Source of the DNA: a virus
IMG/VR virus record: IMGVR_UViG_3300025892_000068
Location: 1 to 33,775 of that record
DNA: 33,775 nt
Direction: 5' to 3' (one strand)
The notes below the pieces were generated by a model, which worked only from the letters and a program-made list of their open reading frames with translations, did not search any database and was not told where the DNA came from. The translations under genes and the position numbers were made by a program. Below, in pieces: positions 9,459-30,302 of this stretch (positions within the stretch are counted from its first letter, which is position 1; the number at the start of each line of letters is the position of its first letter).

Positions 9459-12107
9459 ATGGCTGCTACAAAAAAAGAATCTTTTTACAAAAAATACTAT
9501 CCAATGGTCGTTAAGGCTACCGAAGGAACTGGATTGTTTCCTGAAATGGTTATTGCTCAAATGGCTCTTGAGTCAAGTTGGGGAGAAAGCGGGTTAGCTA
9601 CAAAAGCTAATAATATGTTTGGTGTTAAATCTCATGGTGAAAAAGACGGAATTATATTACAAAATAAAAAAGAAGGTAAAGATATAAGTTGGAAAAAATA
9701 TGAAACTCCTTTAGATAGTATTAATGGGTATGTTAAGTTTTTGCAAGATAATCCAAGATACAAAAAAGGTGGTGTCCTTGATGCTAAAACTCCACAAGAA
9801 CAAGCTAATCTTTTACAAAAAGCTGGATATGCCGGAGATAGTACAACTTATGCAAATAAAATAATTAGTACTATGGAAAATAAAGAAAATGCAAATCACG
9901 TTAAATCTTTATCTACAGAAAAAGCTGAAGAAGTACATAAACTTAATAATGGAGATACTTGGTATGGAAAATTAGATGATAATTTTTTGCCAACTGGAGC
10001 AGGAAAATTAGTAAGTAAAGAGTTTGGAACTAAAACATATAATAAGGGTATTGTTATTCTTCCAAAAAATAAAAAAAAGTTAACTTCTACAGAAAAGTTT
10101 GCAGAAAGTTATCAAAATATTCAAGATGAATTTCCCGATGGAGAATATGGTAGAGGGGGAGATGTGTATGTACTTCCTGATGGAAGAATTTTTTCCTATG
10201 ATGGTAAAATGGGAACATATGATAGAGAATTAAAAAGACCTAAGTGGACACATAACTCATATACTGCAACTAAAGACTGGAAAGGTACTCCTGGCTATGA
10301 AGAAAGACAAGCAAAAAAAGATAAAATAGCTGCTGAAGATGCTGAAAGAACAGCACAAGAACAAGCAGATATAGATAAATACGGAAAAAAAGGTACGTTA
10401 ATTACTGAAGGAAAAAATAGAGGTGGAACTCGATTTTCAGATAACATGTATAGAAATATCTATGGCGATGATGTTTATGAAGGTAGATACACTTTATCTG
10501 ATGAAGAAAAAGCAGAGCAAAATAAAAAAGAAGAAGGTGTTAATATACAAGATTTAGCTGATGAAGAATCAAAAACAACTACAGGTGCTATTAAAGAAAA
10601 TGATTCTCGTGAAGATATTGAAAGAAGAATACAAGATAATAAAGACATATTAAATAATCTTGGTAACAGACCTAAGTTTGTACATGATTATGCTCCTGAC
10701 CAACAACAAAATACAAATTTAGCGGGAAATATTATTGATGCTGGAAGAGGTGTTATTGGAATGATTGGAGCTAACACCGAGGTTCCTGTATATCAAAGAG
10801 GTTCAATGTTTCAAACTTCAATGGATGAGTTAACTCAAAGAAGAAACATGGGTTTAACTGATACTGAAAAAGATTTTGCAAGAAATATGGCTGAGAGAGG
10901 TTATGGCTATGATGTTAAGAATATTGCAAAATTTGCGGGTGGTTCTGCAGGTGTTGCTCTTGGTGGTCTTGGTCGTGCTACTGGACAGTTATATGATCAG
11001 TATGGTCAAATAGCCGTAAGAGATGAAGGTGTGCGTAGGCAAAACAGAGCAGATTTTAATAGAGGTGCTTTAGCTGATGAACAAGTTAATCGTCAAATAT
11101 TTACAGATGATTTAAATCAGACAATGATGACTAAACAAGCTGGTGCTGCTTTGGTTCAAGATGCTACAAAAAATATAAGAGATAGAGCTCAATATGAAAA
11201 AGCTTATGGAAAGGGTAGTCAAATGTATGAGTACATGAAAACTCTTGATAAGGATAGAAAACAGTCTATGTTTGACCAAGAACAAGCTAATGCTGATAGA
11301 GTCGAAGAGTCTAAAAAAACTACTCAAAGAGCAATAGAAAATGATGAGGCGTTGCTTCAAAAATATGGCGCTATAACTCCCGGAACTGTATTAGGTGATG
11401 CTCCAACTGCAACAGAGGGATTTAAGACTGTAGAGGAACTTCAACAAATGAAAAAGGAAGGAGTCATTGAAGAAGATGTTTATCAAGAAAAACTACGACA
11501 ACAACCAGATGATACTGAAATGCCTGATGATTATGTTTATCCAAGTGCTGCATTTGATCCTAATTCTGAAAAAGTAGAAACAGTAAGAAATGTAAGTAAT
11601 GCTCCTCGTGCTAATGATTACAATGAGGGTCTTGTTGGCGTTGATGCTCAAAGACCTAAATCAGCTCTTGTTGATAAAGCTGAAACTGAAACTACAGAAA
11701 CTCCTGACTTAGCTACTCCTGGTATTGTTGCCGATGCTATTACTGAGGAAGTTGTTGCTGAGGAAGAACAAGCTAAGCCAGATGTAAAGGTAAATGACGA
11801 GTGGAATAAAAAATACGATGAGGCTACTGAAAAAGAAAGAGAGAAAATGCTGGATGAACTTCCTATAGAATTTGATGCTTCTTCATTTTCAGATGAAACA
11901 GACCCTGAAGATAATATAAAAGATTATGTTTCAGAATTAGAAAAAAATCCAGAAACTTTAAAAAAATATAAAGAAAATCCTATTGCTTTCTTAGAAGATG
12001 ATATTAGAGGTTGGGAAAGTGAGCCAGACAGTAAAAAGAAAACTGAAAGCCTTAAAAATCTTAAAAGAAATCTTAAATATCTAAAAGCAAAAAAGAAGGG
12101 ACAATAG
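9459..12107 (+). CDS. Virion cargo protein with N-terminal glucosaminidase domain
   Basis: The product is 882 residues. Residues about 10-145 form a FlgJ/LytG-type glucosaminidase domain: PEMVIAQMALESSWGESGL with candidate catalytic Glu38, NNMFGVK, a YETPLDSINGYVKFL segment, and a C-terminal GYAGDSTTYANKI helix. This would cut peptidoglycan when the phage injects. Residues about 230-260 contain a beta repeat (VYVLPDGRIFSYDGKMGTYD). Residues 489-512 (AKFAGGSAGVALGGLGRATG) look like a glycine zipper. The rest is long charged helix, likely coiled coil, ending in a Lys-rich tail. It starts one base after the upstream stop. It differs from the lysis enzyme at 31449, which has a different fold; this one is placed to act at entry. 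Confidence 0.78.
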   Translation: MAATKKESFYKKYYPMVVKATEGTGLFPEMVIAQMALESSWGESGLATKANNMFGVKSHGEKDGIILQNKKEGKDISWKKYETPLDSINGYVKFLQDNPRYKKGGVLDAKTPQEQANLLQKAGYAGDSTTYANKIISTMENKENANHVKSLSTEKAEEVHKLNNGDTWYGKLDDNFLPTGAGKLVSKEFGTKTYNKGIVILPKNKKKLTSTEKFAESYQNIQDEFPDGEYGRGGDVYVLPDGRIFSYDGKMGTYDRELKRPKWTHNSYTATKDWKGTPGYEERQAKKDKIAAEDAERTAQEQADIDKYGKKGTLITEGKNRGGTRFSDNMYRNIYGDDVYEGRYTLSDEEKAEQNKKEEGVNIQDLADEESKTTTGAIKENDSREDIERRIQDNKDILNNLGNRPKFVHDYAPDQQQNTNLAGNIIDAGRGVIGMIGANTEVPVYQRGSMFQTSMDELTQRRNMGLTDTEKDFARNMAERGYGYDVKNIAKFAGGSAGVALGGLGRATGQLYDQYGQIAVRDEGVRRQNRADFNRGALADEQVNRQIFTDDLNQTMMTKQAGAALVQDATKNIRDRAQYEKAYGKGSQMYEYMKTLDKDRKQSMFDQEQANADRVEESKKTTQRAIENDEALLQKYGAITPGTVLGDAPTATEGFKTVEELQQMKKEGVIEEDVYQEKLRQQPDDTEMPDDYVYPSAAFDPNSEKVETVRNVSNAPRANDYNEGLVGVDAQRPKSALVDKAETETTETPDLATPGIVADAITEEVVAEEEQAKPDVKVNDEWNKKYDEATEKEREKMLDELPIEFDASSFSDETDPEDNIKDYVSELEKNPETLKKYKENPIAFLEDDIRGWESEPDSKKKTESLKNLKRNLKYLKAKKKGQ

Positions 12108-12134: not shown

Positions 12135-13709
12135 ATGGCAGATTGGGGTTTATATAGTGCTTTAAGAGGCACTGACGATTGGGCAACTAAACGACAAGAT
12201 AAAAGAATGAACTTGTTGGCGGCTGAAAAAATGGAATTAAGGCAACAAAAAAAAGTTGCTGAATCTAATAAAGCAGAAGCTGACATTGCAAAATACATGG
12301 AAGAACTACAGAACTTAAAGGTTCTTCCTGAAGATCAAGAAAGAGTTGCTCAAGCAGAAAAACAAGCTCGCCAAAGTATAGTTAAAGGAATTGCAAATGC
12401 TAATGGAGATTTAAGAAAGTATATGAGTACGGGAGGTATTACTGCTCTTAATGAATATAAAACTAATGTAATGCAGTCTGAAGAAGTTAAGCAAGCGGGT
12501 GTTAATTCAGTTAATCTTGCTAATTATATTAAAATGGAACAAAAAGGAAATCAACGTCATAAATTAATTGATGTTGAAGTTCCTATGATTGGAGAAGATG
12601 GGAATCCTGTTCTTGATGCTCAAGGCAATCCACAATTCCAAGTTGAGAAAATGACCATGCAAGACCAATATAATAAATATAAAGCTGGAGAAATTACTAA
12701 GCTTAATTATAATGGTTCTGAAACAAAAGTTAAACTTGGTCTTAAAGACTTTGCTAATCAATATAAAAATCCTTCTAATATTTATCAAAAAGATAATTTT
12801 GTTACTGAATCTAATGTTTATGAAAAAATGCTCGATCAAACTGCTTCAGAAGAATACGCAAGAGAACAAGCTAAACGTTACGGCAGTATGGTAAAAGCTG
12901 GCGGAGATCCTTGGAGATGGAAGGCTGGAGATGAAAGTGAATTAGCTTTAAAGATGGCTAAACTTCAACAAAGTCAAGCTAAAGCAAATGCTAAAGCTGC
13001 TGCTGGTGGAGAAAGAAGTTTAACTTCTACTGCTATTTCAAATGTAGTTGGAGAAATTCAAAAACTTGAAGCAGGGCAATCTATGCAAGTTCCTGTAGAA
13101 CTTATCAATGCTGCTGAAAAACAAACTGGGTGGGAGAAAAATAAAGAAGGAAATTATAGACCAAGAAATGGAACAATGGTTTATGACCAATTAAAGCCAG
13201 GCGATGATAAATTTAGTTATGATTTAAGTAAAGCATCTGAAATAACTCCTATGGATGTTGTTGCGTTAGATGGGCCTAAAGATGATAAAGGACAAAGTAG
13301 AACAAGTAGATACATAAGATATAAAGTAACATATGATGATCCTAGTGCTTGGTATAATCCTGGTCTTGGTGGAGATTATTCAGACTTACCGTTTGATGAT
13401 GTACTTTGGAGAACTTCAATAAAAGATAAAGGTATTGAAAAAAATTGGGAAGATGATGGTAGCGGTAATTACACTGGGTATGTTTTAATGGGTATTGATG
13501 ACAAAATAAATAGCCCAACAGTTAAAATGGCAATGAATAAGTTTACAGGTATTAATCAAAACGCTCAATATGCTCATGGATATGCTACTAATGAAACTAT
13601 GCAACAGTTAAGTCCAGAAACTATTCAGTATTATATGGATGCAAATCCTGGTATGTCTGCTGAAGATGTAATAGAAGCTTTTATGATTGAAAAAACAAAC
13701 TATGAGTAA
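12135..13709 (+). CDS. Probable cargo protein, helical N-terminus
   Basis: The product is 524 residues. Residues about 15-100 are strongly helical and charged (RQDKRMNLLAAEKMELRQQK, EERVAQAEKQ-type repeats), probably coiled coil. Residues about 150-180 include a DGNPVLDAQGNPQFQ turn-rich segment. The C-terminal half alternates strands and loops (YIRYKVTYDDPSAWYNPG) and ends in a short acidic helix (GMSAEDVIEAFMIEKTNYE). No catalytic motif was found. A 27-base AT-rich gap precedes it, and its last eight bases overlap the start of the giant polymerase gene (ATGAGTAA), so the two are probably co-translated and may be packaged together. Assigning it to cargo rests on position only. Confidence 0.6.
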   Translation: MADWGLYSALRGTDDWATKRQDKRMNLLAAEKMELRQQKKVAESNKAEADIAKYMEELQNLKVLPEDQERVAQAEKQARQSIVKGIANANGDLRKYMSTGGITALNEYKTNVMQSEEVKQAGVNSVNLANYIKMEQKGNQRHKLIDVEVPMIGEDGNPVLDAQGNPQFQVEKMTMQDQYNKYKAGEITKLNYNGSETKVKLGLKDFANQYKNPSNIYQKDNFVTESNVYEKMLDQTASEEYAREQAKRYGSMVKAGGDPWRWKAGDESELALKMAKLQQSQAKANAKAAAGGERSLTSTAISNVVGEIQKLEAGQSMQVPVELINAAEKQTGWEKNKEGNYRPRNGTMVYDQLKPGDDKFSYDLSKASEITPMDVVALDGPKDDKGQSRTSRYIRYKVTYDDPSAWYNPGLGGDYSDLPFDDVLWRTSIKDKGIEKNWEDDGSGNYTGYVLMGIDDKINSPTVKMAMNKFTGINQNAQYAHGYATNETMQQLSPETIQYYMDANPGMSAEDVIEAFMIEKTNYE

Positions 13710-16700
13710 AGAATTAAATAGCGGAGAAGGGGAAAGAATGATAGACAAAATGTCTGAAATAGATTTATCTGATTGGGTAAAATCTGGAAAACCTCTTTCT
13801 GAATATAAAGCTGATATTGCTGATAGAGAAAAATCTAACCCTGGTGGATTGACCGATGAGGGGATGGAATATTTAAGAGAAAATCAAGATGGAGGAAGAT
13901 TAGAAGATGGTCGTTTTATTACTCAAGATGGTAAAGGTGCTTTTGATACAGAAGAAGAGGCACAAGCTTATGACGCTGAAGTAAGACAAGAAAATGTAGA
14001 AAAAATACGTGCGACTGCAGAAGCAGGGGGCAGAGACCTTGGTCAGGATATACAACAATTAAGAGAGGTTGCTAGTCAATTAAATCCAGCTGAAGCTACT
14101 GGATTTGAAGATACTTATATACCAAATTTAGCTGAAAATAATCAATCATGGTTAAGTGATTTTGGTGAAAGTCTTTATGAGGGATTAATTCTTGATACTT
14201 TAAAAGGAGTTACTAATTTAATACCTACTGTTACACAGGCTTTTTCTGAAAATGTATCACATAGTGTTGAGAAAGGACATGATTGGAAAGATGACTGGAC
14301 TACTGGCTGGATAGAAAATACTACAGCTTGGTTTGATGGAATTTCTCCAACATATAGTGATGCTTATTATAAAGGAGATGGTTATCGTAAATTAGCTACA
14401 GGTCTTGGTCAAGGATTTGGGTTTGTTGGTGGTATTATGTTAGGTGGTTCAGCTATAGCTCAAGGCCTTGGTAAGGGTTTAGGAATGGTTAATAAAGTTG
14501 CCAAACTTAATAAATACGGAGAAATTGTTGGTCAAGTAGGAAAACCTACAAAATGGGCTAATAGGATTGGCTCTTTTACTGCGGGTACTACTATGATGTA
14601 CCCAATGGTTTATGAAGAAGCTATTCAAAAAGGAGTTAATCCTGTTCATGCTGCTCGTTTAGCACTTGGAATTGCTGGTGTTGTTTCAACTACTGAAGGA
14701 ATGGCTTTAGAGTGGATAGGAAAATCAATGAGTAAACCTCTTATTAAAAAAGCTACTAAAGAAGTTTTAAATAAAGAGTTAGTTAAATTAGGAAAAACTA
14801 CTTCTTTAAAAGAAGTATATGCGTTAGAAAAAAACTTTACAAAAGGATTTGTTGAAAAATTAAAAGCAATGGGTCCGAAAGTTTTTCAAGGTAGCGCTAT
14901 TGAGTTTGGTCAAGAATTTTCTCAAACATATATTGAGGAGGGAATGAAACAAATGTATGATGGAACTATAGGTAAAGGTAAAAAAGAAGGAGAGGGTAAT
15001 TTTGGAGCTGACATAGGAACTTTTGAAACTTTTAAAGAAGCCGCTTGGGGAGGTTTAATAGGTGCTATAGTGGGTGGAACACTTCCTGCTGCTGGAAATA
15101 TTAGAGGTAAGGTTGAGCAAGAATCTTTATTTGGTTATGTTAATCAAAATGTTCGTAGAAAAAAACCTAATAATAATTTTCAACTTGAAAAATCAATAAG
15201 AGAATTAGAGGCATCAGGAAGATTAACTCCAGATCAAGCTAATAAAGCTTCTGATGAAATTAAAAATATGGTTCGTTTCTCTACTGAAACAAAAGGACTT
15301 AACATAAACAGTGGTATTGCTAACTACCAATTATTTCAATTATCTGAAAATAATAAAATTATAAAAGACAAATTTGATAAAACATTTAGAGAATCTGAAA
15401 CACTTCCCGCTGCTGTTGCTGCTACGTATGTAATGAATAAGAAAATGGGTAATGAAATAGCTACTGCTATTAATGAGGACATGAGTACTATAATTGAAGA
15501 TAAACAAGCATGGACTAAAAATAAAGTTAAGTTTGAAAAAAGAATAGGGCTTTATAATAAGCTTGCTTTAAAGGTGATACGTAATGAAATAACTGAAGAA
15601 GATTTTACTAAAGAGTTAGAGGGTATTAAAACAGGTAAGACTGCGAAACCTTCAAAACAAGCAGCCAAGAAGAACGGAGCAAAAGTTACAGAATATAAAA
15701 CTAAGAATGGGGATGTAGTTACAGAGTCAGCTATGGAAAATGCTGAATCTATTATTACGGGATATAAAGCGGCTGGTGAAATAAGTTCTGAAGCAGAAAT
15801 TGAGTTTCAGTCTAAAATAAAAGAAGAATATGGTATTGATGAAAAAGGATTAAAATTCTTATTTCAAAATGAAGGTGCTACTGTTAAGGAAATGAAAGCT
15901 AACTTGGAAGAGTTAGAGGTTATGGCTCAAAAAACTTCTGGTAAAACTGAAGTTATTAATAAGGAATTAAAGGCTAAGGTAGCTGATATAGAGCAAAGAA
16001 GAAAAGCTGATTTAGATTCAATAGAATTTAAAGAAACTTTTCTTGGAGATACTTATGTTGCAGATGGATATGAAAGTGACGGAACGCTTGAGGGTGCTAA
16101 AAAAGCTATTAATGATAAATACGATGCTGAATTATCTGAACTTGAAAAAAGTGATAAGTCTAAAGACGATACAAAACCATCATTTGGAGTAGACTTTAAA
16201 AATGTTGAAAGAGAATCAGAAACAAATGATACAGAATTTAAGAAAAGGTTTGATGCTGAACAAGATAAAAAGACACAGAAATATATAACACAAGTTAAGG
16301 AACAAGAGAATTTAACTGATAAAGACCTTAATGCTATAATGGATGAAGCAGATGCCGAAGGTGTTATGAGTCCTGATTTAATGATGGCTATTTCTGAACG
16401 TAGAGATTCTTTAAACAAAACTGATGACTCTGTTCTTACTGATAAAACTGACAAAACTGATAAAGTTGATAAAGTTGATAAAGGTCCAAAAGATATAAAT
16501 AAAATTACTCGTAAAGAAAGAGAAGTAAGATTAAGGGAAAAATATCCAGATGGATATAAAGTTGGTAATAGTTTCTTTGTTGGAAGAAATGAAGATGGTA
16601 GTTTAGATGCTTATAGTTTAGCTACTGGTAAAAAGCTTGAGGGTAAATTAGCTGAAAGAGCAAAAAATCAACATGCTCTTATACCGGGAATGATTAAAGC

Positions 16701-19700
16701 TAAGATGGGAGAGTTCTTAGATTCAGATAAGGCTATTCCTTTGTTTGAGTTAATGGATAAATGGTATGATGTACAAATAAAAGAAAATGCTAATCAGGAA
16801 ACAGTACAAGACCAAATAGCAGATAAATTATTTGGCGTAAAGTTTAAAAGCAACAAAGAATTAGAAGCAGATTATCTTGATTTACCTAAGTCTTGGATTT
16901 CTAAAGATGGTGTTTCGATTGATACGTTTGTTACAGACACATTAATGGCAGAAATTTTAGAGCTTGAAAATGCAGACACACAAGAACTTATTGAAGAAGT
17001 AAAAGATTTTATATCTGAATACAAACATAGTAGAGAATACTTAAAAGAAAGAAGGTCTGAATTTGATAATGATAGAGCAGATATAGCAGATCAGTTTGAA
17101 GAGTTAAGCGGTATTAGGTTATCAAATGAAGTAACTAAAGATAATGACACTGTAGCTAATGCTATAATGGATGAATTAGTTTCTAAACATTTTTATAAAC
17201 AACCAGTAGGAGAGGTTGACCAAAGTGGTTATCAAGATTATGAACTTGTTCCTATAGTTGAAGGATTCGATGTTGAATCTGAACAAAATGAAGATTATTA
17301 TGAACAACAAGAAAAAGATAGTACTGAAACCGGGGAGCAAGGAGGAACTACAGTTCCATCAGAAGTTAGTGAGGAAACAGATACAGATGTTGAAGAACAA
17401 ACAGAAGAAGTAGATGAAAACAGGGTTTATCCTGGGGATGTTATTGAATATGACGGTTCTTTCTATAAAGTAGAAGCTCCTGAAAATATTGATAAGCTTT
17501 CTGGTGAACAGATTTTAGCATTAGAAGAAGATGGATATACGGGTGGTTCTATGGCTGTTGAAGCTTATTTAAACATGGATAAGTTTGACTTAATGCCTTG
17601 GAATGTAAGTAAAAATAAAGTTGATGATTCAGATTTACATCCAACAGGTCCTTTATTCGGAGCTCCTTTAGAAGTTTTACAAAACGAAGGATTTAAGAAA
17701 GTAAAAAAAGGTGAATTTAGCAAAGCGTTTGATTCAATTCAAGATGCTGAAATAGTTGAAGAAACTCAAGAACAAATTGATGATGCAGTAAATGATGCGT
17801 TAAATTTTCTGGATGAAACTAATGACGATGTTAAAGACCAAAGGCTTGCTCCTAATAGTCCAATAGTTAAAGATACTATTAGGCAAAATCCTAAATTACA
17901 GGCTAAGATAGTTAAACACTTTCAAAAAATATTCCCTAACATACCTGTAAGTCAAGTTGAAAAAATAGCTTCTGAGTATGGTGGAGAAGTATTAGGTAGA
18001 GTTGTAGAGCAAGGTATTCAAATAGATAGTTCTCGTGCTTTCCAAAATACTATTATACATGAGTACGCTCACGTTTATATTAAGATTCTTGGAAAGAATA
18101 ATCCTATTATTAAAAAAGGATTAGAGTTAATGGAGGGTTCTCAGTACTTTAAAGACGCTCAAAAGAAATATCCAGACCTAAGTAAGGCTGACCAATTAGA
18201 AGAAGCTTTAGCTGAAGCTATAGCTGATAATTCTTATGATAAACTAAAGGTTAAGCTTGACGGTAATTTAGCTGATAAGTTTGTTGCTGTAATGAAAAAG
18301 TTTTGGGCTGCTGTTAAAAGAAACTTTACTAAATCAAAAGGAAAAGATATTGTTAGTATAATAGCTGATGGTATGACTTTCGGTAATCAACCATTTACTT
18401 ATGATTCTAAAATACTTAAAGGGTTAAATAAAGACCAACGTGCTTCTAAAAAAGCGGTTGCAACTACATCTATGCTTCAGGCTATTGTGTCAAGACTTAG
18501 GGTAGGAAAAATACAAGATTCAACTAAGCTATTTGATCCAACTAATTCTGTACAGCTATCTCAAGTTGTGTATGATGTATTAAAAAACAGATATATTGCA
18601 GAAAATAAAATTGATTGGAAAGATTCTGATACAAAAATATTTGAAAATGTTAGTGTTAATCTTATTGAAGAAAAAACTATTGCTGATAGAAAAATAAATA
18701 GAACAGCAATGATGGAAATGATGCAGGAAAAAATGCCTGAATTATATACCGTAACACAAAGAACTATTGAATCGTTTAGTAAGAATCCATTACCTACAAT
18801 CGATGAAGTTAATTCTGATAGTGCTGTAAAAGCTAATAAAAAAATATCAGAATCTCTTAGGTCTATTGTAACTTCTATTGTTGATTATGAAGGTAGGTCT
18901 ATTGAAGCAGATAACATTTATAGATATGTTGCTGATGTTGCTCAAAATACTTATGGTAAAAAACAATTTAGAAAAAAGATTAAAGATAATGCAGATGCTG
19001 GTGTAAGCATAGAAGCTATTAGGTTCTATGAAATGATGCAAGAAATGCCTAAAGGTATTAAAGATTCTATTGAAAGTGAATTATCTTCATTGATACAAAC
19101 TAAGTATAAGGGTATAACTATAACTCGAAATAAAGATACTGGTAAGTTAGAGTTAAGAATAAAACTTGTAAATAAAGATGAGTCTTTAGCTTCTCAACTT
19201 AATGAAGCTTATCAAAGAGTAGAATCTCTTTCAAATGATTTTGGATTACGTGAGATTATTGAAACTCCAAGTTATTTTCCTAAATTAAAAGATAGAAATT
19301 CTGATATATTTAAACAAGCTAAAAAAACTATAGAAGATATTTTTGATATGTCTATATCAAATGAAGATTTTAATACTTTCGTTGACTTAATTACAGAAAA
19401 GAATCCAATAGGTTTGGGTGGCTTTATCACTAATGTGTGGGATGTTTTTAATGGTTCTATTCAGAAAGAAAGTAAAACAGCAAAGAAAGGAAAAGCTGTA
19501 ACTGGTAAACATATAAACACTTATCTTTCTAAATTGTTTAACGCTGCTTCTGATAAGACTGCTTTGACAAATACATTCCCCAATATGAGTGGGAATAGTG
19601 TATCGTCTACAAACTTTGGTTATTTTATTTCTGAGCAAATATCAATGATATTTAATAAGCCTGGTCATTTAGAATTAATGAAAAAGAATCCTCTCTACAA

Positions 19701-22700
19701 GAACAATCCAGTTCTTAAGATGATTTCAGACCTTAAAGATAAAGGAGTTAAAAGTCTTGATTGGTCTGTTCATGATGCAATTAGCAATATGTTTACTAAT
19801 AAAACTATTGAACATGGAAAACAAGTTCAATCTGATACTCTTTTAATGGGCTTGTCTTATTTTGCCGCTACTGCAAATAAAGATTCTTACGATCAAAGTA
19901 TTGGTATAAGTGGTGACAGAAGTAAAACAACTACTGTTCAAGCTCCAAGATTTAAAAATGTACAAGCTATAGCTAATCAATTAAATAAAGATGCTTCTAC
20001 TCAGCAAAAAATGTTTAATGATAAAATAAAAGGCATTGAAATAGGTTCAAAAGATTACAACACTATTGTAGATAATTTCAATAGTATGTATATGAATAAA
20101 ATTAACGAAGAAGGTAAGGTTGTTTCTCCGTTAATTGTAAGAGCAGATAATGTTGTTGATAATAATCCAAGTTATCCTAAAAAGTTTAGAGTTGCTAATG
20201 AAAAGAATATAGCTATTCTTAATAAAACTATTAGAAATAATAAACTTACTGAAGCTATTGGTAAAGATTTAGTTGGATTTGGAAAACCTTACAATTCTTT
20301 AAAAGAATTAGTAAATAGTTATTATTACACTGAAGCTATTAATAGAAGTGCGTTGATGGATATATTTGCTGGTCCGATGTTAGACCGTAAGAATGTAGCT
20401 GATGCAGTTAAACGTGGTTCGGGGCCAAACTCTGGTGGTACTTTAATTGAACATGAAAAGCCTGTTACGTTTGTTGTTTATGATGTTCCAAGTGAAGTTG
20501 AAGAAGGAGAGTTTACTTCTGACTCAATGAGTATTGATGGTTCTTATTTACATGACTATACTATTGAAGAATCAGGGGAGTTAGGAAATGTAGGTGTAAA
20601 TAAAAAAGATTTCATTTATCAAGTTGACCCTACTACTAATAAAGTTCTTATGGTTAAGATGAGTTCTATTGGACTTCAAAAAGAAGGTCAAGGAACTAAT
20701 TTTGATAAGATGGGGAAAGAGTATAAAAGAATGGGAGAGGCTTTCTTAAAAGCTGAACAATATTTTGCTGAAAAATATGGAGATGAAAAGCCTCATATTA
20801 AATTCGTTGATAGTAAAACAATGAAAGGTAATGACGGTAACTTTAAGAAAGTTAAGCTTACTGACTTACTTAACGATATAGAAAACGATAAATTTAGTTC
20901 TCTTGAATCTGCTTCTTTTGAGAAAGAAATTACCAATCATAGAGTTGCATTTAATCTTAATAAAGATTTATCTAAGATTCCATTAAGTGAACAAGTATCT
21001 ACGTTATCTACTCAGTTAAGAAATATCGCTTCTACCGGCGCTACTAAAACCGAGATTGATGCTTTTGAAGATTCGATAGTTGAGTTACTTCAAGAATCAT
21101 TGGGTGCAACTAATGGAGATTATAATAACGCTAAGTCTAAAAAACAATTAGAGAATAACTCTGTATTTTTAGATGAACTGTTAAAAGGAGCTGATGAACA
21201 AAAGTCTAATTCTATATCTCGATTGTTATATCAAATTAAAGACCACAATAAAAACAATCCAAATAATCAGATTACTGTTTACGATGATCCAAATTTAGTT
21301 AATCTTGTTCAGCAATTTATTGCTACTAAACTTACTAAAGATGGTATTCGTACAGAAGTAGCAGGTGCATATAACCATATGATACCTAATTACGGTAATG
21401 ATTTAAAGTGGTATGACTATGGTAAAACAGGAACAGAAAGTCATCCAGAAGTTGCTTTACCTACTTCTATGTTTGTTCAACAAAAAGAAGGAGAAACTTA
21501 TGAAGAATATGAAGCAAGAGCAGATAAGTATTTAGCTGATGCTAAAGAAAAAGGTGGGTTAAGAGTTGTTGTTGTTCGTGTTCCTGCTTCAAAAGGTATG
21601 TCAACATTTGTAGCTACTGTTAAATATTTTACAGACCCAAAAGCAAATACTGTTATTGTTCCTGATGGATTTATAAAAGCTTCTGATGCTGATCATGATG
21701 GAGACAAAACTTTTGTCTATAGAGAAGATTTAGATAATAATGGAGTTGTTAATGAAAATTCGTTTAAGAATAAAGTATTTAATAACTTACATAAAAGAAT
21801 ATCTTCTGAAGCTCTTATTAAAGAAACAAAAGATAGTTTAAAGTTAGATGATATTAAAGCAATTCTTAATGAGTTTGGTTTAGACCAAACAAAAGGGTAT
21901 AAATTATCTGATGCTGTTGAGGTCGCTAATGTTACTGAACAAATGGCGTTTGGTAATGACGCTGTTGGTATATTAGCTATTGCTTCTAAAATGCTTGCTG
22001 TAATGAGTCAATCTAAAGAAGAACTTAAAGACGGTAAAGAAATTAGTTTTGGATATGAAATGACTAAAAATCCAGAAACAGGAAAGGTTGAAAGAAGAAT
22101 GTTATTTGGAGATGAAGCTACAACATATAAAGAGTTTTCTGATGCACAAGGTTCTGATATGGCAAGGTTACTACAAGCTGCTTTAGATATGGGTAATGAC
22201 CCTATTTTAATGTCAACTGGTATTAATCAAGAAAGTATTGGCGTAGCTACTACTTTGTCTTTATTGGGTGTAGATACCAAAGAAATAATTGGATTCCTTA
22301 CTGACCCTGATATACAGAAATTTAATCAAGCAATCTTTGAAGCTAACACAGGTTTTAGTCAAGGTGATGCTAAGACAAGTAATGAAATAAGAACTGAAGA
22401 AATCTTAAAGATATCTCCTGAAGTAGGAAGGTTTAAGAAAACAAGTGGAAAGGGTGGATTAACAGATTACATTAAAGGTCCTGCTAAAGGTATAATTAAG
22501 ATAGATGAAAAGTCTCCACAAAAAGAAGGTGTGTATCGTACTACAAAAGGTGACACTTATTATTCTGTTACTGCTACTGATGTTGAGGGAGATTATCAAG
22601 TTGAAATTGTTCATCAATTACAAGAAGGTGCTATATCTAAAATAGATAATTACATTGATATTCAAAAAGTAAGTAATAGTATACAAGAGCTTATACCAAT

Positions 22701-23958
22701 ATTACAGTTAGATAGTAAACTTCCTAATACAGGAACTAAAATTACTAATTTAAAAGAAACTTATAATACAATTACTGAAGAAGAATTTCCTATAACTACT
22801 GATAATTTATTGGCAAGACCATTAAACAAACATCAAAAGTCAGTATCAGATATGCAAAGAACTGTTACTAAACAAAAATTCATTACTGAAAATGAAGCGT
22901 TTTATAACATAGCTAATCAGTTTAAAAAGATTGCTAAAGCAAAGAAAGCTGTTGATAATTCTTTTATGCAACAACATGCTCAAAATCAATTAAGACTTAC
23001 GCATAGTGACCCAAAATCATTTATATACGACTTCTCTAAAGAAGTTAATAATATACTTTATACTTCTATAGTTGGAGAAGTTCAATTATCTGATGCGGCT
23101 TGGAGTGATATTGATACTCGTAAAATGGTTTTAGATTTTATAGAAGAAAAAGATTCTAACCCAAGAGTGTATGAAGAAAAATTATTAAAACTTTCATCAA
23201 AAAGTCAAGAAACTATTAAAGACTTAATGAACAAGTATAATAATTCTTTAAATAGTTTTGATAAAAATTATGAATTAGGAAAGAATCCATTTATGAGTGC
23301 TATTCAAATGTCTTGGACTGAAGTAGAGTCTGAAGATCAATATGGTGAATCTATAAAAACTAAAGAAAATTTCTTAATTAAGTCTAAAGGTAATATTAAC
23401 AAATTAAGCCCATCTGTTCTTCAGGAAATTAAAGATGGCTTCTTAAAACTACCTCAAGAAATGCAAGATAAGTTTATTGATTATCAATTACTACGTCATG
23501 GAGTAAATGAAAAAATGGGTAGCTTAATGGGAATACTTCCAGATAGCCTTAGTTTAAAAACTAACACTCTTGCAAATATATCTGAGATAGATGGAATGAA
23601 TAGAGAAGATTATTTTAAAAATCAAAGACCTCTTATTCAAAGAAATGTAGCTTTGTCAATGTTTAATAAACTTGCTGAACCACAATATGCTAATAAAATA
23701 GCGGGTAGAACTGACAATGTTTTGTCTTGGAACGGTAAGGATGTTTACATTAAAAAAGGAAATGACATATACGAAAGAACAAATGAAAAAGTTCAAGTAG
23801 AAAACAATGAACCAAACATTTATAAAAAAATAACTAACAGTCAGTTTATTGCTGGGAAAGATTTTACTAAATTTGGAGATCAAGCTTCTTTAGAGATTAG
23901 TGAAGTTACAGACAAAGAGATTGAAGAAGAAATAAAAAAGTGTAAAATTAAAACTTAA
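13702..23958 (+). CDS. Giant virion cargo protein: zincin-type site plus virion RNA polymerase
   Basis: I choose ATG 13702, overlapping the upstream stop, over TTG 13687; this gives 3,418 residues. Residues 234-263 and 446-468 are Gly-zipper hydrophobic segments (GLGQGFGFVGGIMLGG; AAWGGLIGAIVGG). Residues 914-928 are a DKT/DKV repeat linker. HEYAH at 1453-1457 with Glu1500/1501 downstream is a zincin metallopeptidase pattern. The RNA polymerase core shows RVP (2626-2628) followed by ADHDGD (2663-2668). This mirrors the cellular beta' RAP...NADFDGD catalytic loop, and the RxP-to-motif spacing is also close. An earlier candidate DPBB-1 region includes SIDGSY (2278-2282) and DSKTMKG (Lys2372, Lys2375). 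This fits the YonO/phi14:2 gp66-like single-chain RNAPs of crAss-like phages, carried in the virion for early transcription. Domain boundaries are approximate. Confidence 0.82.
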   Translation: MSKELNSGEGERMIDKMSEIDLSDWVKSGKPLSEYKADIADREKSNPGGLTDEGMEYLRENQDGGRLEDGRFITQDGKGAFDTEEEAQAYDAEVRQENVEKIRATAEAGGRDLGQDIQQLREVASQLNPAEATGFEDTYIPNLAENNQSWLSDFGESLYEGLILDTLKGVTNLIPTVTQAFSENVSHSVEKGHDWKDDWTTGWIENTTAWFDGISPTYSDAYYKGDGYRKLATGLGQGFGFVGGIMLGGSAIAQGLGKGLGMVNKVAKLNKYGEIVGQVGKPTKWANRIGSFTAGTTMMYPMVYEEAIQKGVNPVHAARLALGIAGVVSTTEGMALEWIGKSMSKPLIKKATKEVLNKELVKLGKTTSLKEVYALEKNFTKGFVEKLKAMGPKVFQGSAIEFGQEFSQTYIEEGMKQMYDGTIGKGKKEGEGNFGADIGTFETFKEAAWGGLIGAIVGGTLPAAGNIRGKVEQESLFGYVNQNVRRKKPNNNFQLEKSIRELEASGRLTPDQANKASDEIKNMVRFSTETKGLNINSGIANYQLFQLSENNKIIKDKFDKTFRESETLPAAVAATYVMNKKMGNEIATAINEDMSTIIEDKQAWTKNKVKFEKRIGLYNKLALKVIRNEITEEDFTKELEGIKTGKTAKPSKQAAKKNGAKVTEYKTKNGDVVTESAMENAESIITGYKAAGEISSEAEIEFQSKIKEEYGIDEKGLKFLFQNEGATVKEMKANLEELEVMAQKTSGKTEVINKELKAKVADIEQRRKADLDSIEFKETFLGDTYVADGYESDGTLEGAKKAINDKYDAELSELEKSDKSKDDTKPSFGVDFKNVERESETNDTEFKKRFDAEQDKKTQKYITQVKEQENLTDKDLNAIMDEADAEGVMSPDLMMAISERRDSLNKTDDSVLTDKTDKTDKVDKVDKGPKDINKITRKEREVRLREKYPDGYKVGNSFFVGRNEDGSLDAYSLATGKKLEGKLAERAKNQHALIPGMIKAKMGEFLDSDKAIPLFELMDKWYDVQIKENANQETVQDQIADKLFGVKFKSNKELEADYLDLPKSWISKDGVSIDTFVTDTLMAEILELENADTQELIEEVKDFISEYKHSREYLKERRSEFDNDRADIADQFEELSGIRLSNEVTKDNDTVANAIMDELVSKHFYKQPVGEVDQSGYQDYELVPIVEGFDVESEQNEDYYEQQEKDSTETGEQGGTTVPSEVSEETDTDVEEQTEEVDENRVYPGDVIEYDGSFYKVEAPENIDKLSGEQILALEEDGYTGGSMAVEAYLNMDKFDLMPWNVSKNKVDDSDLHPTGPLFGAPLEVLQNEGFKKVKKGEFSKAFDSIQDAEIVEETQEQIDDAVNDALNFLDETNDDVKDQRLAPNSPIVKDTIRQNPKLQAKIVKHFQKIFPNIPVSQVEKIASEYGGEVLGRVVEQGIQIDSSRAFQNTIIHEYAHVYIKILGKNNPIIKKGLELMEGSQYFKDAQKKYPDLSKADQLEEALAEAIADNSYDKLKVKLDGNLADKFVAVMKKFWAAVKRNFTKSKGKDIVSIIADGMTFGNQPFTYDSKILKGLNKDQRASKKAVATTSMLQAIVSRLRVGKIQDSTKLFDPTNSVQLSQVVYDVLKNRYIAENKIDWKDSDTKIFENVSVNLIEEKTIADRKINRTAMMEMMQEKMPELYTVTQRTIESFSKNPLPTIDEVNSDSAVKANKKISESLRSIVTSIVDYEGRSIEADNIYRYVADVAQNTYGKKQFRKKIKDNADAGVSIEAIRFYEMMQEMPKGIKDSIESELSSLIQTKYKGITITRNKDTGKLELRIKLVNKDESLASQLNEAYQRVESLSNDFGLREIIETPSYFPKLKDRNSDIFKQAKKTIEDIFDMSISNEDFNTFVDLITEKNPIGLGGFITNVWDVFNGSIQKESKTAKKGKAVTGKHINTYLSKLFNAASDKTALTNTFPNMSGNSVSSTNFGYFISEQISMIFNKPGHLELMKKNPLYKNNPVLKMISDLKDKGVKSLDWSVHDAISNMFTNKTIEHGKQVQSDTLLMGLSYFAATANKDSYDQSIGISGDRSKTTTVQAPRFKNVQAIANQLNKDASTQQKMFNDKIKGIEIGSKDYNTIVDNFNSMYMNKINEEGKVVSPLIVRADNVVDNNPSYPKKFRVANEKNIAILNKTIRNNKLTEAIGKDLVGFGKPYNSLKELVNSYYYTEAINRSALMDIFAGPMLDRKNVADAVKRGSGPNSGGTLIEHEKPVTFVVYDVPSEVEEGEFTSDSMSIDGSYLHDYTIEESGELGNVGVNKKDFIYQVDPTTNKVLMVKMSSIGLQKEGQGTNFDKMGKEYKRMGEAFLKAEQYFAEKYGDEKPHIKFVDSKTMKGNDGNFKKVKLTDLLNDIENDKFSSLESASFEKEITNHRVAFNLNKDLSKIPLSEQVSTLSTQLRNIASTGATKTEIDAFEDSIVELLQESLGATNGDYNNAKSKKQLENNSVFLDELLKGADEQKSNSISRLLYQIKDHNKNNPNNQITVYDDPNLVNLVQQFIATKLTKDGIRTEVAGAYNHMIPNYGNDLKWYDYGKTGTESHPEVALPTSMFVQQKEGETYEEYEARADKYLADAKEKGGLRVVVVRVPASKGMSTFVATVKYFTDPKANTVIVPDGFIKASDADHDGDKTFVYREDLDNNGVVNENSFKNKVFNNLHKRISSEALIKETKDSLKLDDIKAILNEFGLDQTKGYKLSDAVEVANVTEQMAFGNDAVGILAIASKMLAVMSQSKEELKDGKEISFGYEMTKNPETGKVERRMLFGDEATTYKEFSDAQGSDMARLLQAALDMGNDPILMSTGINQESIGVATTLSLLGVDTKEIIGFLTDPDIQKFNQAIFEANTGFSQGDAKTSNEIRTEEILKISPEVGRFKKTSGKGGLTDYIKGPAKGIIKIDEKSPQKEGVYRTTKGDTYYSVTATDVEGDYQVEIVHQLQEGAISKIDNYIDIQKVSNSIQELIPILQLDSKLPNTGTKITNLKETYNTITEEEFPITTDNLLARPLNKHQKSVSDMQRTVTKQKFITENEAFYNIANQFKKIAKAKKAVDNSFMQQHAQNQLRLTHSDPKSFIYDFSKEVNNILYTSIVGEVQLSDAAWSDIDTRKMVLDFIEEKDSNPRVYEEKLLKLSSKSQETIKDLMNKYNNSLNSFDKNYELGKNPFMSAIQMSWTEVESEDQYGESIKTKENFLIKSKGNINKLSPSVLQEIKDGFLKLPQEMQDKFIDYQLLRHGVNEKMGSLMGILPDSLSLKTNTLANISEIDGMNREDYFKNQRPLIQRNVALSMFNKLAEPQYANKIAGRTDNVLSWNGKDVYIKKGNDIYERTNEKVQVENNEPNIYKKITNSQFIAGKDFTKFGDQASLEISEVTDKEIEEEIKKCKIKT
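16441..16485 (+). repeat. Five 9-bp tandem units encoding DK(T/V/G) linker
   Basis: Five near-identical units of the form GA(T/C)AAA(A/G)(C/G)T encode DKT-DKT-DKV-DKV-DKG inside the giant protein at residues 914-928. The repeat sits in a charged, low-complexity region between the N-terminal helical part and the zincin part, so it is probably a flexible spacer. Unit number may vary between relatives through slippage, always in frame. Confidence 0.75.
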
Positions 23959-23965
23959 GTAAAGT

Positions 23966-26900
23966 ATGGCAACGTGTCCAAATAAAGCTCATCCAGATTG
24001 GAAAACACTTGAAACTCGTCATGGGGAAAAAGGTGCTTGGAAAATGTATATAGAAAATGGCTATAACATTCCTGTTCCTGAGTTACCTTCAAGTAAGGTA
24101 AAGTTTGATGCGGATGGTGTTAGATATAATTCTCGTGATACAATGCAAGCTTTAGATAGCAATCCTAAAATGGCTAAAGAAATTATTGATAGCCTTGCTG
24201 AATTATATCCTAATGTTAAAATATATGAAAATGGATTATTTGATAAAGATGGAAATTGGTTAGATATCCCTCCTGGTGAAAAAGGAATGCACTATAGAAA
24301 TGCTTTTGAAGGTGCTGTTGCTTGGTCTAATGACGCACGTATGGAAACTCCTCCACATGAATATGCTCATGAGTACGTTGATATGTTTAGAGAAATGCCT
24401 ATTGTTAAAAAAGGTATTGAGAAATACGGAGAAGAACAGTTGGTAAAAAGAATGGGAGCTTATTACGCAGGAAGAAAAATGAGTAGTTCTTTTAGTAATT
24501 TTGTTCAAGACTTTTGGGAAAGTATTAGGTCCTTCTTTGGTAATCCTGATGTTGCTGATATATTATCACAAAATTTTTACAAAGGTAAAATGCTATCAGG
24601 AAAACCTCATCAAGGAACTGCTATTGTAAGGTATCATGAAGGAGATGGTGTTTTAAAAGAATCAAATGGTGGTGTTAATTCTGAAGGTCAATATAGTGAA
24701 GCTGATGTTACAGTTGCTGAGAACATTGATGAAGAATCAGCAAATAAAGCATTTAAAAGAGTTGCTATCGATAATGATGCGTTGGTATATGATGAGTCTG
24801 ATATTGCTAAATCAGGTGAAGCAAATAACTTTAATGTAAATAAACTACGTACAGTTATAAATGAAAGAATACAAAAACTAAGAGGTAGAGATAGAACAAG
24901 AGATGGCAGAGAAATGAACTCTCCTAATACTGATAGCAGAATACTTGAAGATGTTCAGGAACTAATAAAAGATGATGAGCTAATAGATAAAGTAGCTAAT
25001 TACATATTAGGAAAAAGAGAAATGACTGAGGAGAAATTATCTTTAGATAAGACAAAAGTTATTATGCCTGCTAAAGAAATACCTTTAAGTGCTCAAGAAC
25101 AATTAGTTTATAACACTATAATAAGTATAGAACAAAGGCTTGATTATCTTAGTAAAACTGAAAATTCTTTTTATGATAGTAATGGCAATCTTGTTAATGC
25201 AAAGCCAGTTATTGAGAACATCTCTAATGAGATTAGCGAAGCCGCTAAAAGAAGAGTAGCCATGTATGATAAGATACCAAACAAAGCTTTAAAAAAGTTC
25301 TTTAAAGGCTTTGAAAAGCTTCTTGCTCAATGGCAATTAAATGCAAGACTTATAACTAAGTATTTATCAGGAAGTGAAAATAGTGAGTTATCTGATATGG
25401 TTTATAAAGCGTTAGACCAAGCTGATGGAAAAAAGTTAGGTATAATGCAAAGATTTACTGATATATTTACTGGAGTAGATTCTATTCCTGGTTATAAGAA
25501 ATGGGGTGTATATAATAATCAAGGTGCTGAAATAGATGCATTAGATACTGTTGACGTTAATACAGATCAAGGTACTCTTAAACTAACTAAAGCTGAATTA
25601 CTTTCTTTATATTTAAATTTAAGACAAGGAGATTCAAGAACAGCTATAGCAAATAAAGGATTTATACTAGACCAAGACATTAAAGGAAGAGATATTGAAT
25701 TTGGAAATACATTTAAGATAACTCCTTCAGAAGAAGTAAAAATAAATAGTATTGTAGAAAAAGATTCTCAAATGATGGAAGTTGTTTCTAAAATTGATGA
25801 ATCTCTTGACTATATGTATAGTGCTACAAATCCAACATTTAGACAAGAGCAAGGATATGATTTACCTAAATTAAAGAATTACTTTCCTGTTTATACTGGA
25901 GAAAAAAGTATTACTTTAAGAAGAAGTAAAAATAGTTTAGATGAGTGGAGAGCGGGTAATGCTCGTCTTGGTCAAGATAAGCCATTGCGTATAGGGGATG
26001 CTGTTGGTGTTATGAGTAATGTTAAGAATAGTGGTGCTACATATGCTGCGTATGCATTACCAATAGCAAACATTAGAAAGCTTCAAGCTTCGCTTGCAAA
26101 AAAATATATGAATAAACAAGAAGAAGTTTATTTTAAAAGTATTGATGGAATTATAGAAAATATTGAATCTCCGGGAGAACTATTTAATAGTTGGGCTGAA
26201 AGTAATTTTTCTCAAAAAGTAAATATGATTACAAGTAACTTTGCCGTATCTGTTCTCGGAATGAATTTAGCAGTAATGATGAAACAACCTGTATCATATA
26301 TTACCGCTATGGAAGAGATAGATAAAAAATACCTTAAAGAGGCTGGGTGGGGTATTGGCGGGTTTGTTGGTATAAGTCCTCAAAAAATATTTAAATCATT
26401 AGCTTATACTGGTGTTGAGGGTGGAGATACATTAATTCCTGTAGAGTGGAGATTAGACAAAAAAGATAATCCTATCTATGATGAGATGATGCAAGATCCT
26501 AAGATGAGGGCAAGGCTTGAAGGTATGGTTTCTAAGGAAACGGGTGAAGCTTTAATGAATGCTGAAATAGGTCAAGACAAAATACCAATGCCTTGGAAAA
26601 ATAAACAAGGAGAAAAGGTATATATTAGCAAGGCTCGTTTAATGGAGGGTATTAAAATATTTGATTCTGTAACAATTATGTCCATTTGGAAAGCTGTTAA
26701 ACTTGAAACTGCTGAACAACTACCTCAACTTGTAGAAGGCACTGCTGAATATAAGCAACATGTTGCAATAAGAGTTAATAATATTGTAAATAAAACTCAA
26801 CCTACTTATGACGCGGCTAATAGGGCTGCTCTTTCTTTATCTAAGAATCCAGTAGCAAGAGTTTTTACTATGTTTAGTTCTGCAAGAAGTAAGGTTGCTA

Positions 26901-27364
26901 TGTTATTAATTGATGGTGCTGTTAGTTACATAAATAATCCTTCTCCTGAAAATAAGAAAAAACTTTTTAAACGCTTAATGAATGTAGGTGTAACAACTGC
27001 TTTAACTTTAACTTTAATAGATATGTTAAAGGGTGGTGTTTTATATGGTTTTGATGATGACGATGATATAGCAAAAGCTGTATCAATGAATATGATAACT
27101 ACTAATTTGGGATATTTATATGGTATAGCAAACTTAAGTAGCTTAGTTATGTCTCAATTAGATGATAAGCCTTGGCATAAAAATATGCAACATCCTTTTG
27201 AAGTATTAGTTCAAGAATCATCTCAAGCTATTTCTCATGTTTTTAAAGGTAATTTTGATAAAGCTTTCCTTAAATCTTTAGATGTTGCAATGAAAGCGAG
27301 TGGATTACCAATATCAGTAAAAACATATACTAAGGCGGTATATAATGAGGTCGCAGAAGAATAA
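23966..27364 (+). CDS. Cargo protein with second zincin-type site and hydrophobic C-terminus
   Basis: The product is 1,132 residues. The N-terminus (CPNKAHPDWKTLETRHGEKG, then a YIENGYNIP segment) is a start often seen in large phage virion proteins. HEYAH at residues 131-135 with Glu156/157 after it is a zincin metal-site pattern. The following stretch (MPIVKKGIEKYG, FWESIRSFFGNPDVADIL) parallels the zincin region of the giant polymerase protein. The C-terminal third has SNFAVSVLGMNLAVMMKQP, then NKTQPTYDAANRA and FTMFSSARSKVAMLL, and a membrane-like VGVTTALTLTLIDMLKGG segment. This C-terminal pattern recurs in ejected phage proteins. It begins seven bases after the polymerase gene ends and precedes a promoter. 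A metallopeptidase that is ejected and membrane-associated is inferred; activity is untested. Confidence 0.72.
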   Translation: MATCPNKAHPDWKTLETRHGEKGAWKMYIENGYNIPVPELPSSKVKFDADGVRYNSRDTMQALDSNPKMAKEIIDSLAELYPNVKIYENGLFDKDGNWLDIPPGEKGMHYRNAFEGAVAWSNDARMETPPHEYAHEYVDMFREMPIVKKGIEKYGEEQLVKRMGAYYAGRKMSSSFSNFVQDFWESIRSFFGNPDVADILSQNFYKGKMLSGKPHQGTAIVRYHEGDGVLKESNGGVNSEGQYSEADVTVAENIDEESANKAFKRVAIDNDALVYDESDIAKSGEANNFNVNKLRTVINERIQKLRGRDRTRDGREMNSPNTDSRILEDVQELIKDDELIDKVANYILGKREMTEEKLSLDKTKVIMPAKEIPLSAQEQLVYNTIISIEQRLDYLSKTENSFYDSNGNLVNAKPVIENISNEISEAAKRRVAMYDKIPNKALKKFFKGFEKLLAQWQLNARLITKYLSGSENSELSDMVYKALDQADGKKLGIMQRFTDIFTGVDSIPGYKKWGVYNNQGAEIDALDTVDVNTDQGTLKLTKAELLSLYLNLRQGDSRTAIANKGFILDQDIKGRDIEFGNTFKITPSEEVKINSIVEKDSQMMEVVSKIDESLDYMYSATNPTFRQEQGYDLPKLKNYFPVYTGEKSITLRRSKNSLDEWRAGNARLGQDKPLRIGDAVGVMSNVKNSGATYAAYALPIANIRKLQASLAKKYMNKQEEVYFKSIDGIIENIESPGELFNSWAESNFSQKVNMITSNFAVSVLGMNLAVMMKQPVSYITAMEEIDKKYLKEAGWGIGGFVGISPQKIFKSLAYTGVEGGDTLIPVEWRLDKKDNPIYDEMMQDPKMRARLEGMVSKETGEALMNAEIGQDKIPMPWKNKQGEKVYISKARLMEGIKIFDSVTIMSIWKAVKLETAEQLPQLVEGTAEYKQHVAIRVNNIVNKTQPTYDAANRAALSLSKNPVARVFTMFSSARSKVAMLLIDGAVSYINNPSPENKKKLFKRLMNVGVTTALTLTLIDMLKGGVLYGFDDDDDIAKAVSMNMITTNLGYLYGIANLSSLVMSQLDDKPWHKNMQHPFEVLVQESSQAISHVFKGNFDKAFLKSLDVAMKASGLPISVKTYTKAVYNEVAEE

Positions 27365-28989: not shown

Positions 28990-29640
28990 ATGTGTGTAAA
29001 TTGTGGTGTACCGAGTTGTTCAAGTTGTAATAAGACAAGTTTCCTTCCTGCCTATACGTCTGCTTTAAAGTATGATGGACCGGCTTTTGCTTGTTCTGGA
29101 AAGTCTGCTGTTAATTTTGAGATACCAACGTGTATAACGATGAATCAGATGCTAACTCAGATAATGGAAGCTATCTGTGCTAAGAATGGAGGAAGTGTTT
29201 TAGAAAGGGAAGTTGTTGAGATTACTGCTGACCAAGTGAAAGCTTTGCATACTGCACCTCAATTACTACTTGCTAATAGCGTTACCTCTGGTTATGATAT
29301 TCACAGTGTAATTATCAAAGCAAATCAAGTAACAACTGATTATACTTATACAACTCCAGCTGACCCTACTCAATTAGTGGTAAAAGCTATTTCTGTTGTT
29401 GACCCTTCTCCTGGTCAAACACTTTATACAACTGGTGTTTTCTTAGAAGGAATTAATGCAATCTACACTGCGGGAATTGGAAGAGTAGCTACTAAGATGG
29501 TTGAACCTGATGCGAGAACAGTTATCACTGGCAATGACCAAACGGGAATATGGCTTACTACTGGTGGTCCATCTCAAGCATTTACTCTTGGAGACCATAC
29601 GTTAACTGTTACTATACTGTATAGAGAACTTACAGCTTAA
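28990..29640 (+). CDS. Tail-fibre protein with Cys-rich N-terminal adaptor
   Basis: The product is 216 residues. The N-terminus MCVNCGVPSCSSC is followed by LKYDGPAFACSG and a helix with MNQMLTQIMEAICAKNGG. The next two genes have the same pattern, so this looks like a common attachment domain. From about residue 75 a helical connector (EREVVEITADQVKALHT) leads to a beta domain (SGYDIHSVIIKANQVTTDYT, FTLGDHTLTVTILYREL) that would face outward. Unlike its neighbours it has no collagen-like repeat. It is the first of three likely fibre paralogues. Similar Cys-start fibre proteins are common in Bacteroidota phages as far as I recall. The receptor is unknown. Confidence 0.68.
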   Translation: MCVNCGVPSCSSCNKTSFLPAYTSALKYDGPAFACSGKSAVNFEIPTCITMNQMLTQIMEAICAKNGGSVLEREVVEITADQVKALHTAPQLLLANSVTSGYDIHSVIIKANQVTTDYTYTTPADPTQLVVKAISVVDPSPGQTLYTTGVFLEGINAIYTAGIGRVATKMVEPDARTVITGNDQTGIWLTTGGPSQAFTLGDHTLTVTILYRELTA

Positions 29641-29659
29641 TTTAAAAAAAAAGAATATT

Positions 29660-30292
29660 ATGTGCGTAAAATGTGGAATAAATAGTTGTAATAGTTGTAG
29701 TGGTAAAAAATGTATACCATCTGTTACAGGAGATTTACTTTATAATGGATTAGATTTTATTTGTTCTGGCTACTTTTCATTTGATAATGGAGATTCATTA
29801 AATAGCATTATAGATACACTTGCTACACAAGTTTGTACTACGCTTATAAACGGAAGCCCTAAAGGTCCAACAGGAGATCAAGGCCCAGTAGGAAATCAAG
29901 GACCTCAAGGTATTCCAGGTGGTGCTGGCATTCAATTTGAATATTGGACTGAAATATCTTCAAGTAATACACAATGGCCTAAATTTCCACTAAACGATAT
30001 ACTTGCTTCACATACAGTTACTGCTGATGGAAATTATCAAGTTATGGCTACAGTTTTAATAGAACAAACATCATTAAGTGATGGAGGGTTTTATCTTAAT
30101 GCGGGTGGAGTAAATGTTCAGACATTACTTCCTATGAATAAGAATACTGTTGATTCTCAAATATCAACATTAGCAATTAATTGGAGAGGTGCTTTACTTA
30201 ATGGCCAATCTTTATCAATTCACGTTTATGGTTCCGGGCTAGGAGAAGTTAATTATACTCGTGGTGGTGCGTTTTTAATAAATAAAGAATAA
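29660..30292 (+). CDS. Collagen-like tail-fibre protein with Cys-rich adaptor
   Basis: The product is 210 residues. The adaptor is MCVKCGINSCNSCSG then LLYNGLDFICSG and a helix (SLNSIIDTLATQVC). Residues 69-92 form eight Gly-X-Y triplets (GPTGDQGPVGNQGPQGIPGG), a trimeric collagen-like stalk. The C-terminal ~115 residues are a beta domain (ASHTVTADGNYQVMATVLIE, GFYLNAGGVNVQ, INWRGALLNGQSLSIHVYGS) that resembles C1q/TNF-like heads. These form trimers on collagen stalks in other proteins. It follows a 19-base A-rich gap. A trimeric surface fibre is a confident reading; the ligand is not known. Confidence 0.75.
   Translation: MCVKCGINSCNSCSGKKCIPSVTGDLLYNGLDFICSGYFSFDNGDSLNSIIDTLATQVCTTLINGSPKGPTGDQGPVGNQGPQGIPGGAGIQFEYWTEISSSNTQWPKFPLNDILASHTVTADGNYQVMATVLIEQTSLSDGGFYLNAGGVNVQTLLPMNKNTVDSQISTLAINWRGALLNGQSLSIHVYGSGLGEVNYTRGGAFLINKE
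29864..29935 (+). repeat. Collagen-like Gly-X-Y repeat region
   Basis: Eight consecutive Gly-X-Y codon triplets lie between the adaptor and the beta head of the fibre protein. Such repeats vary in number between phage relatives by recombination or slippage in 9-base units. Confidence 0.75.
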
Positions 30293-30302
30293 ATTAAAAT
30301 CT

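Follow-up and report, generated by a model that had tools for sequence, protein, structure and literature searches.

The source phage and its gene content

The window, by which we mean the whole stretch of DNA analysed (33,775 nt; IMG/VR record IMGVR_UViG_3300025892_000068), comes from a marine crAss-like phage. Megablast of the window against phages returned no match. A longer contig, G001 (IMGVR_UViG_3300001355_000010), is 99% identical to the window over the 1.5 kb compared, and the C-terminal half of its giant protein is 100% identical to that of the window. Beyond the window, G001 carries terminase, portal and capsid genes, the capsid protein matching the Pfam family Crass_capsid with an E-value of 3.4e-47. 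In the window itself, the 1,453-residue protein encoded at 4320-8681 matches the stabilization proteins (tail proteins) of phi14:2 and gut crassviruses, and around the giant open reading frame (ORF) the genes follow an order like that of phi14:2, where structural proteins, the polymerase and its associated protein form a block. Judged by its sequence, the phage belongs to the Crassvirales. Beside the cargo genes, 9459-12107 encodes a protein of 882 residues that begins with a glucosaminidase domain (PF01832, E 8.4e-29). At 28990-30935 lie three adjacent proteins with a similar Cys-rich start (MC.KCG...C..C), two of which also have collagen-like or tail-fibre matches.

The features of the giant ORF and of the gene that follows it are these:

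13702-23958, plus strand: giant ORF, 3,418 residues, comprising an N-terminal module, a variable linker, a zincin-like domain and a double-barrel RNA polymerase; relatives have the same one-ORF architecture
14149-15951, plus strand: conserved N-terminal module (residues ~150-750, from the conservation profile), with Gly/Ala-rich hydrophobic stretches
16099-17751, plus strand: poorly conserved linker of variable length (residues ~800-1350; occupancy 0.2-0.7 among relatives), candidate cut region
17839-18501, plus strand: zincin-like domain (residues ~1380-1600), from hhalign homology to other HExxH domains and the conservation profile
18058-18072, plus strand: HEYAH (residues 1453-1457); H1453 and E1454 invariant, H1457 present in all but L069 and L058
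18202-18204, plus strand: E1501, an invariant glutamate and predicted third zinc ligand
19570-22890, plus strand: RNA polymerase core (residues 1957-3063), aligned to phi14:2 gp66
20656-20658, plus strand: K2319, lysine in at least 90% of members (alignment A6), candidate basic residue of the second barrel
21577-21585, plus strand: RVP (residues 2626-2628), counterpart of RIP in phi14:2 gp66 and of RAP in beta'; R2626 and P2628 invariant in alignments A4, A6 and A8
21688-21705, plus strand: ADHDGD (residues 2663-2668); triad D2664/D2666/D2668, then K2669, invariant in A4, A6 and A8
21913-22011, plus strand: predicted 33-residue helix (residues 2738-2770, secondary structure of the model), bridge-helix candidate
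23966-27364, plus strand: next gene, 1,132 residues, with its own zincin-like domain homologous to that of the giant (HEYAH at residues 131-135, nt 24356-24370) and no polymerase motif

A giant ORF with two recurrent sites

The giant ORF runs from ATG to stop without an internal stop codon, with an in-frame TTG 15 nt ahead of the ATG. Translation places HEYAH, RVP and ADHDGD (DHDGD, residues 2664-2668) exactly where the earlier note had reported them, and the separation it gave as about 1,200 residues is 1,211 between HEYAH and DHDGD. In 3,000 shuffles of the giant protein, HExxH arose in 1.8%, DxDGD in 8.5% and both together in 0.2%, while the looser DxDxD appeared in 72%, so that the last motif alone means little. 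Relatives about 30% identical to the giant likewise carry HExxH and the polymerase loop in a single ORF, roughly 1,180-1,360 residues apart; since both sites recur at such low identity, their pairing is real. The position of HExxH itself ranges from 938 to 1457 among full-length relatives.

Part of the N-terminal module is similar to the N-terminus (residues 91-359) of the phi14:2 virion protein g067 (hhalign 89.6%, E 1.9e-6). By analogy with its homologues, the giant would be packaged in the virion. Taken as a whole, the giant is very probably a crAss-type virion RNA polymerase that forms the C-terminal half of a chain with an N-terminal module and a zincin-like middle.

A contrary reading would put HEYAH down to chance and take DHDGD for an acidic loop, calcium-binding or otherwise, the protein being neither peptidase nor polymerase. 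It could be argued from the facts that each motif alone is not rare in a protein this long and that single-sequence searches of the giant against Pfam, PHROGs and PDB gave nothing significant. The conservation seen among relatives and the fit of the modelled core to 6VR4, both described below, leave this reading barely tenable.

The C-terminal half is a double-barrel RNA polymerase

For residues 1884-3063, the predicted structure (pLDDT 78.7, pTM 0.75) matches the phi14:2 virion RNA polymerase, 6vr4_A, with a Foldseek E-value of 1.4e-21 and a Z-score of 21.4 over 938 residues (rmsd 4.9); the next structural matches are QDE-1 and cellular polymerases. Structure prediction, which the earlier note had put forward as a check, thus agrees with its proposal for the polymerase part. 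At the sequence level, the catalytic loop aligns with DFDID-K of phi14:2 gp66. When the window family is aligned with phi14:2 gp66 and the three intermediate marine phages L056-L058, the R and P of the RxP motif are invariant, as are the three aspartates and the lysine that follows. Set against the gp66-family core by hhalign, the window-family core gave 97.6% (E 4e-12), and unrelated cargo proteins used as negative controls remained below 3%. The window-family profile alone did not reach 6VR4 when searched against PDB sequences; a PDB match with an E-value of 4.7e-27 came from a profile that included nearer gp66 relatives, and is not independent. A profile of the catalytic loop, searched against genome contigs, gave no match.

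On the evidence of conserved sequence and the predicted fold, the C-terminal half is a double-barrel RNA polymerase of the phi14:2 gp66 type, in keeping with the single-chain crAss-like polymerase originally suggested. By analogy with phi14:2, it would be active in transcription and serve early genes. Two candidate readings fall away at this point: one without any polymerase is contradicted by the fold match to 6VR4, and one in which DHDGD is a chance occurrence or an EF-hand (calcium-binding) loop is rejected by conservation.

The zincin-like domain

Conservation along the giant peaks at residues 1401-1550, at or above the level of the catalytic loop, and such conservation of the HExxH block contradicts a chance origin of HExxH. 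A conserved block, HFxKIFPNIPV, precedes HEYAH. E1501, in a predicted helix 48 residues past H1453, is predicted to occupy the position expected for the third ligand of a gluzincin. Profile comparison by hhalign relates the domain to the HEAFH domain of L056/L057 (95.6%), to that of cr108_22606 (96.4%), to that of the next gene (97.9%, E 6e-13) and, most closely, to that of the giant virion proteins Gundel_1 gp74 and L047-L050 (99.2%), in which the polymerase catalytic motif is absent. Known zincin families were hit weakly and below threshold (SprT-like, 8/15; Tox-MPTase2, 4/15; also myroilysin and lethal factor), and these recurrent weak hits are all to metallopeptidases. No relation was found to phi14:2 g065, g066 and g067 or to the crAss001 RNA polymerase gp50, nor did profile comparison detect one to phi14:2 g065 and cr8_19918 through their HEIMH and HEGLH motifs. 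A model of the zincin region was poor (pLDDT 68.7, no strands and no recognisable zincin fold), and a fold search with it returned helical chance matches only, with no zincin among them.

The zincin-type site of the earlier note is sustained by the HExxH motif, the conserved glutamate E1501 and homology to other HExxH domains. We take the middle domain to be a putative metallopeptidase, zincin-like and of the type that phage polyvalent proteins carry.

Fused, split and absent forms among relatives

Besides the window, 15 other IMG/VR contigs combine an unaltered HExxH with the polymerase loop in a single ORF (L042, L043, L044, L045, L046, L054, L055, L063, L064, L067, L068, L070, L071, L072 and L073), a count that includes one near-duplicate of the window (L043) and two near-identical sets (L054/L055 and L063/L068/L071). 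Fusion extends to distant crassviruses, namely L056, L057, cr50_1 and cr108_1. In the case of cr50_1, a giant of 4,774 residues has HEAFH at 1665 and DFDID at 3154; the gene (L076, 7396-21720) carries the annotation 'DNA helicase', just as the polymerase giant of cr8_1 (L007, 7732-21000) is annotated 'nuclear pore complex-like protein'. The polymerase gene of cr108_1 (L004) is broken for ~290 nt at 11726-12017, just before the catalytic loop, and then resumes; the interruption is probably an intron.

In crAss001, the zincin-like domain (HEAFH, 2157) sits close to the C-terminus of gp47, and the gp47 gene break falls just past that domain; the polymerase is the separate gp50. We located the polymerase core and its DFDVD loop in gp50 (L075), whereas in PMC8375218 the predicted catalytic subunit is gp49. 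All three of gp47, gp49 and gp50 are virion proteins (PMC10172136; PMC6235969). The zincin domain is absent from g066 and g067 of phi14:2.

Two fused relatives have lost the second histidine, L069 having HEFAE and L058 HEVFE. Together with EECAH in cr108_22608, such HExxE sites would suit a structural domain, a metal-stabilised fold used for packaging or ejection that has no peptidase role in the giant. Encapsidation of the N4 polymerase, for instance, needs a region spanning its peptidase domain even though the protein is uncut (PMC5512222). Nearly all members nevertheless retain both histidines, the glutamate of HExxH and the later glutamate, within the most conserved block of the giant, and we would put a purely structural role at perhaps one chance in four.

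Certain giants contain the domain twice. In L041 (G003:C1:1-14000), a close relative, an extra HEYAH zincin-like domain at residue 1534 precedes the usual one at 1760, and the L049 and L050 giants have two zincin-like domains each. These duplicates, and the same domain in the next gene and in the Gundel_1-like giants lacking a polymerase, would fit an effector that enters with the DNA, cleaves proteins of the host or other phage cargo, and merely rides on the delivered polymerase chain; host targeting has been proposed for polyvalent peptidases (PMC5512222). Even in distant relatives the zincin-like domain shares a chain with the polymerase at a nearly constant spacing, which argues against such an effector, as does the lack of a known target, and we would give this role perhaps one chance in four.

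Comparison with known systems

A peptidase-like domain and a virion polymerase in one chain have been published before, for N4 (T7-like) and P23-45 gp96 (double-barrel). The N4 vRNAP (gp50) and N4-like polyvalent RNA polymerases resemble the giant in being giant injected polymerases with an HExxH zincin-like domain in the same chain (PMC5512222; PMC12633501), but the N4 polymerase is T7-like and its HExxH domain follows the polymerase rather than preceding it. The core of the giant is not T7-like but double-barrel, matching both 6VR4 and QDE-1. P23-45 gp96 (PMC10770324), compared here by description only, also joins a double-barrel virion polymerase to a metallopeptidase domain; it is, however, a long-tail tape-measure protein with an N-terminal polymerase, whereas that of the giant is C-terminal. 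The nearest structural counterpart, phi14:2 gp66 (PDB 6VR4), shares the double barrel, the RxP motif and the aspartate-triad loop, but is a separate protein of 2,180 residues without HExxH, the g067-like module being encoded by another gene. In crAss001 (gp47/gp50), cr50_1 and cr108_1, a zincin-like HEAFH/HESFH domain occurs with the same polymerase family, in one chain in cr50_1 and cr108_1 but in two proteins encoded on opposite strands in crAss001; the zincin branch of these three (HExFH) is distant from that of the window.

The crassvirus version, then, is a phi14:2-type polymerase with a polyvalent-type domain placed ahead of it, a real and conserved pairing that extends the N4 and P23-45 pattern of giant injected polymerases with peptidase-like domains to the crassviruses. 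The literature searched, to which Drobysheva 2021 and Yutin 2018 did not belong, contained no naming of a zincin-like domain in crassviruses; an earlier mention is possible.

Possible self-release of the polymerase

We tentatively favour, at somewhat under an even chance, a giant that is packaged whole and whose zincin domain cuts its own chain during or after ejection, freeing the polymerase for early transcription. The N-terminal module would help packaging or ejection of the intact chain. During or after ejection, the zincin domain would refold, bind zinc and cut the chain, in cis or between copies, either in the variable linker upstream of the domain or at the junction just downstream of it. 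The cut would part the ejection module from the polymerase, which might then transcribe early genes. A conserved cut site was sought in the conservation profile of the giant, which offered none, only the variable linker; since this linker precedes the zincin domain, cleavage within it is no less likely than cleavage between the zincin and DPBB parts.

The polymerases of phi14:2 and crAss001 are encoded as proteins of their own, so the polymerase need not stay attached, and self-cleavage is plausible. The crAss001 gene break just past the zincin domain corresponds to the downstream of the two candidate cut positions. Precedent for cleavage exists in P1 DdrB, which is cut prior to packaging (PMC5512222), and autoproteolysis has already been proposed for the N4 polymerase (PMC5512222; PMC12633501). 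Against release, the N4 polymerase with its HExxH domain is packaged unprocessed (PMC5512222), and the crAss001 gel bands of 150, 270 and >300 kDa (PMC6235969) seem to fit uncut gp49, gp47 and gp50. Loss of the second histidine in the fused L058 and L069, and the occurrence of homologous domains without a polymerase, both in the next gene and among Gundel_1-like giants, also count against it, and keep host-directed and structural roles in play.

Whether the same holds for crassviruses in general, with a peptidase module between ejection part and polymerase that is fused in many lineages, split in crAss001 and frees the polymerase by self-cleavage at entry, seems to us doubtful. The zincin-like site in gp47 of crAss001, a cultured phage, makes release testable. 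If true, self-cleavage would act as a timed switch, tying the onset of transcription to delivery of the genome in a group of gut viruses that is very abundant.

The start of the next gene

The first ~36 residues of the next gene (23966-24073; MATCPNK..W..L..G..) recur at the starts of otherwise different proteins, and this possibly represents a packaging or docking tag. Starts of this MATCPNK type occur downstream of the polymerase in L056-L058 and in cr108_22608.
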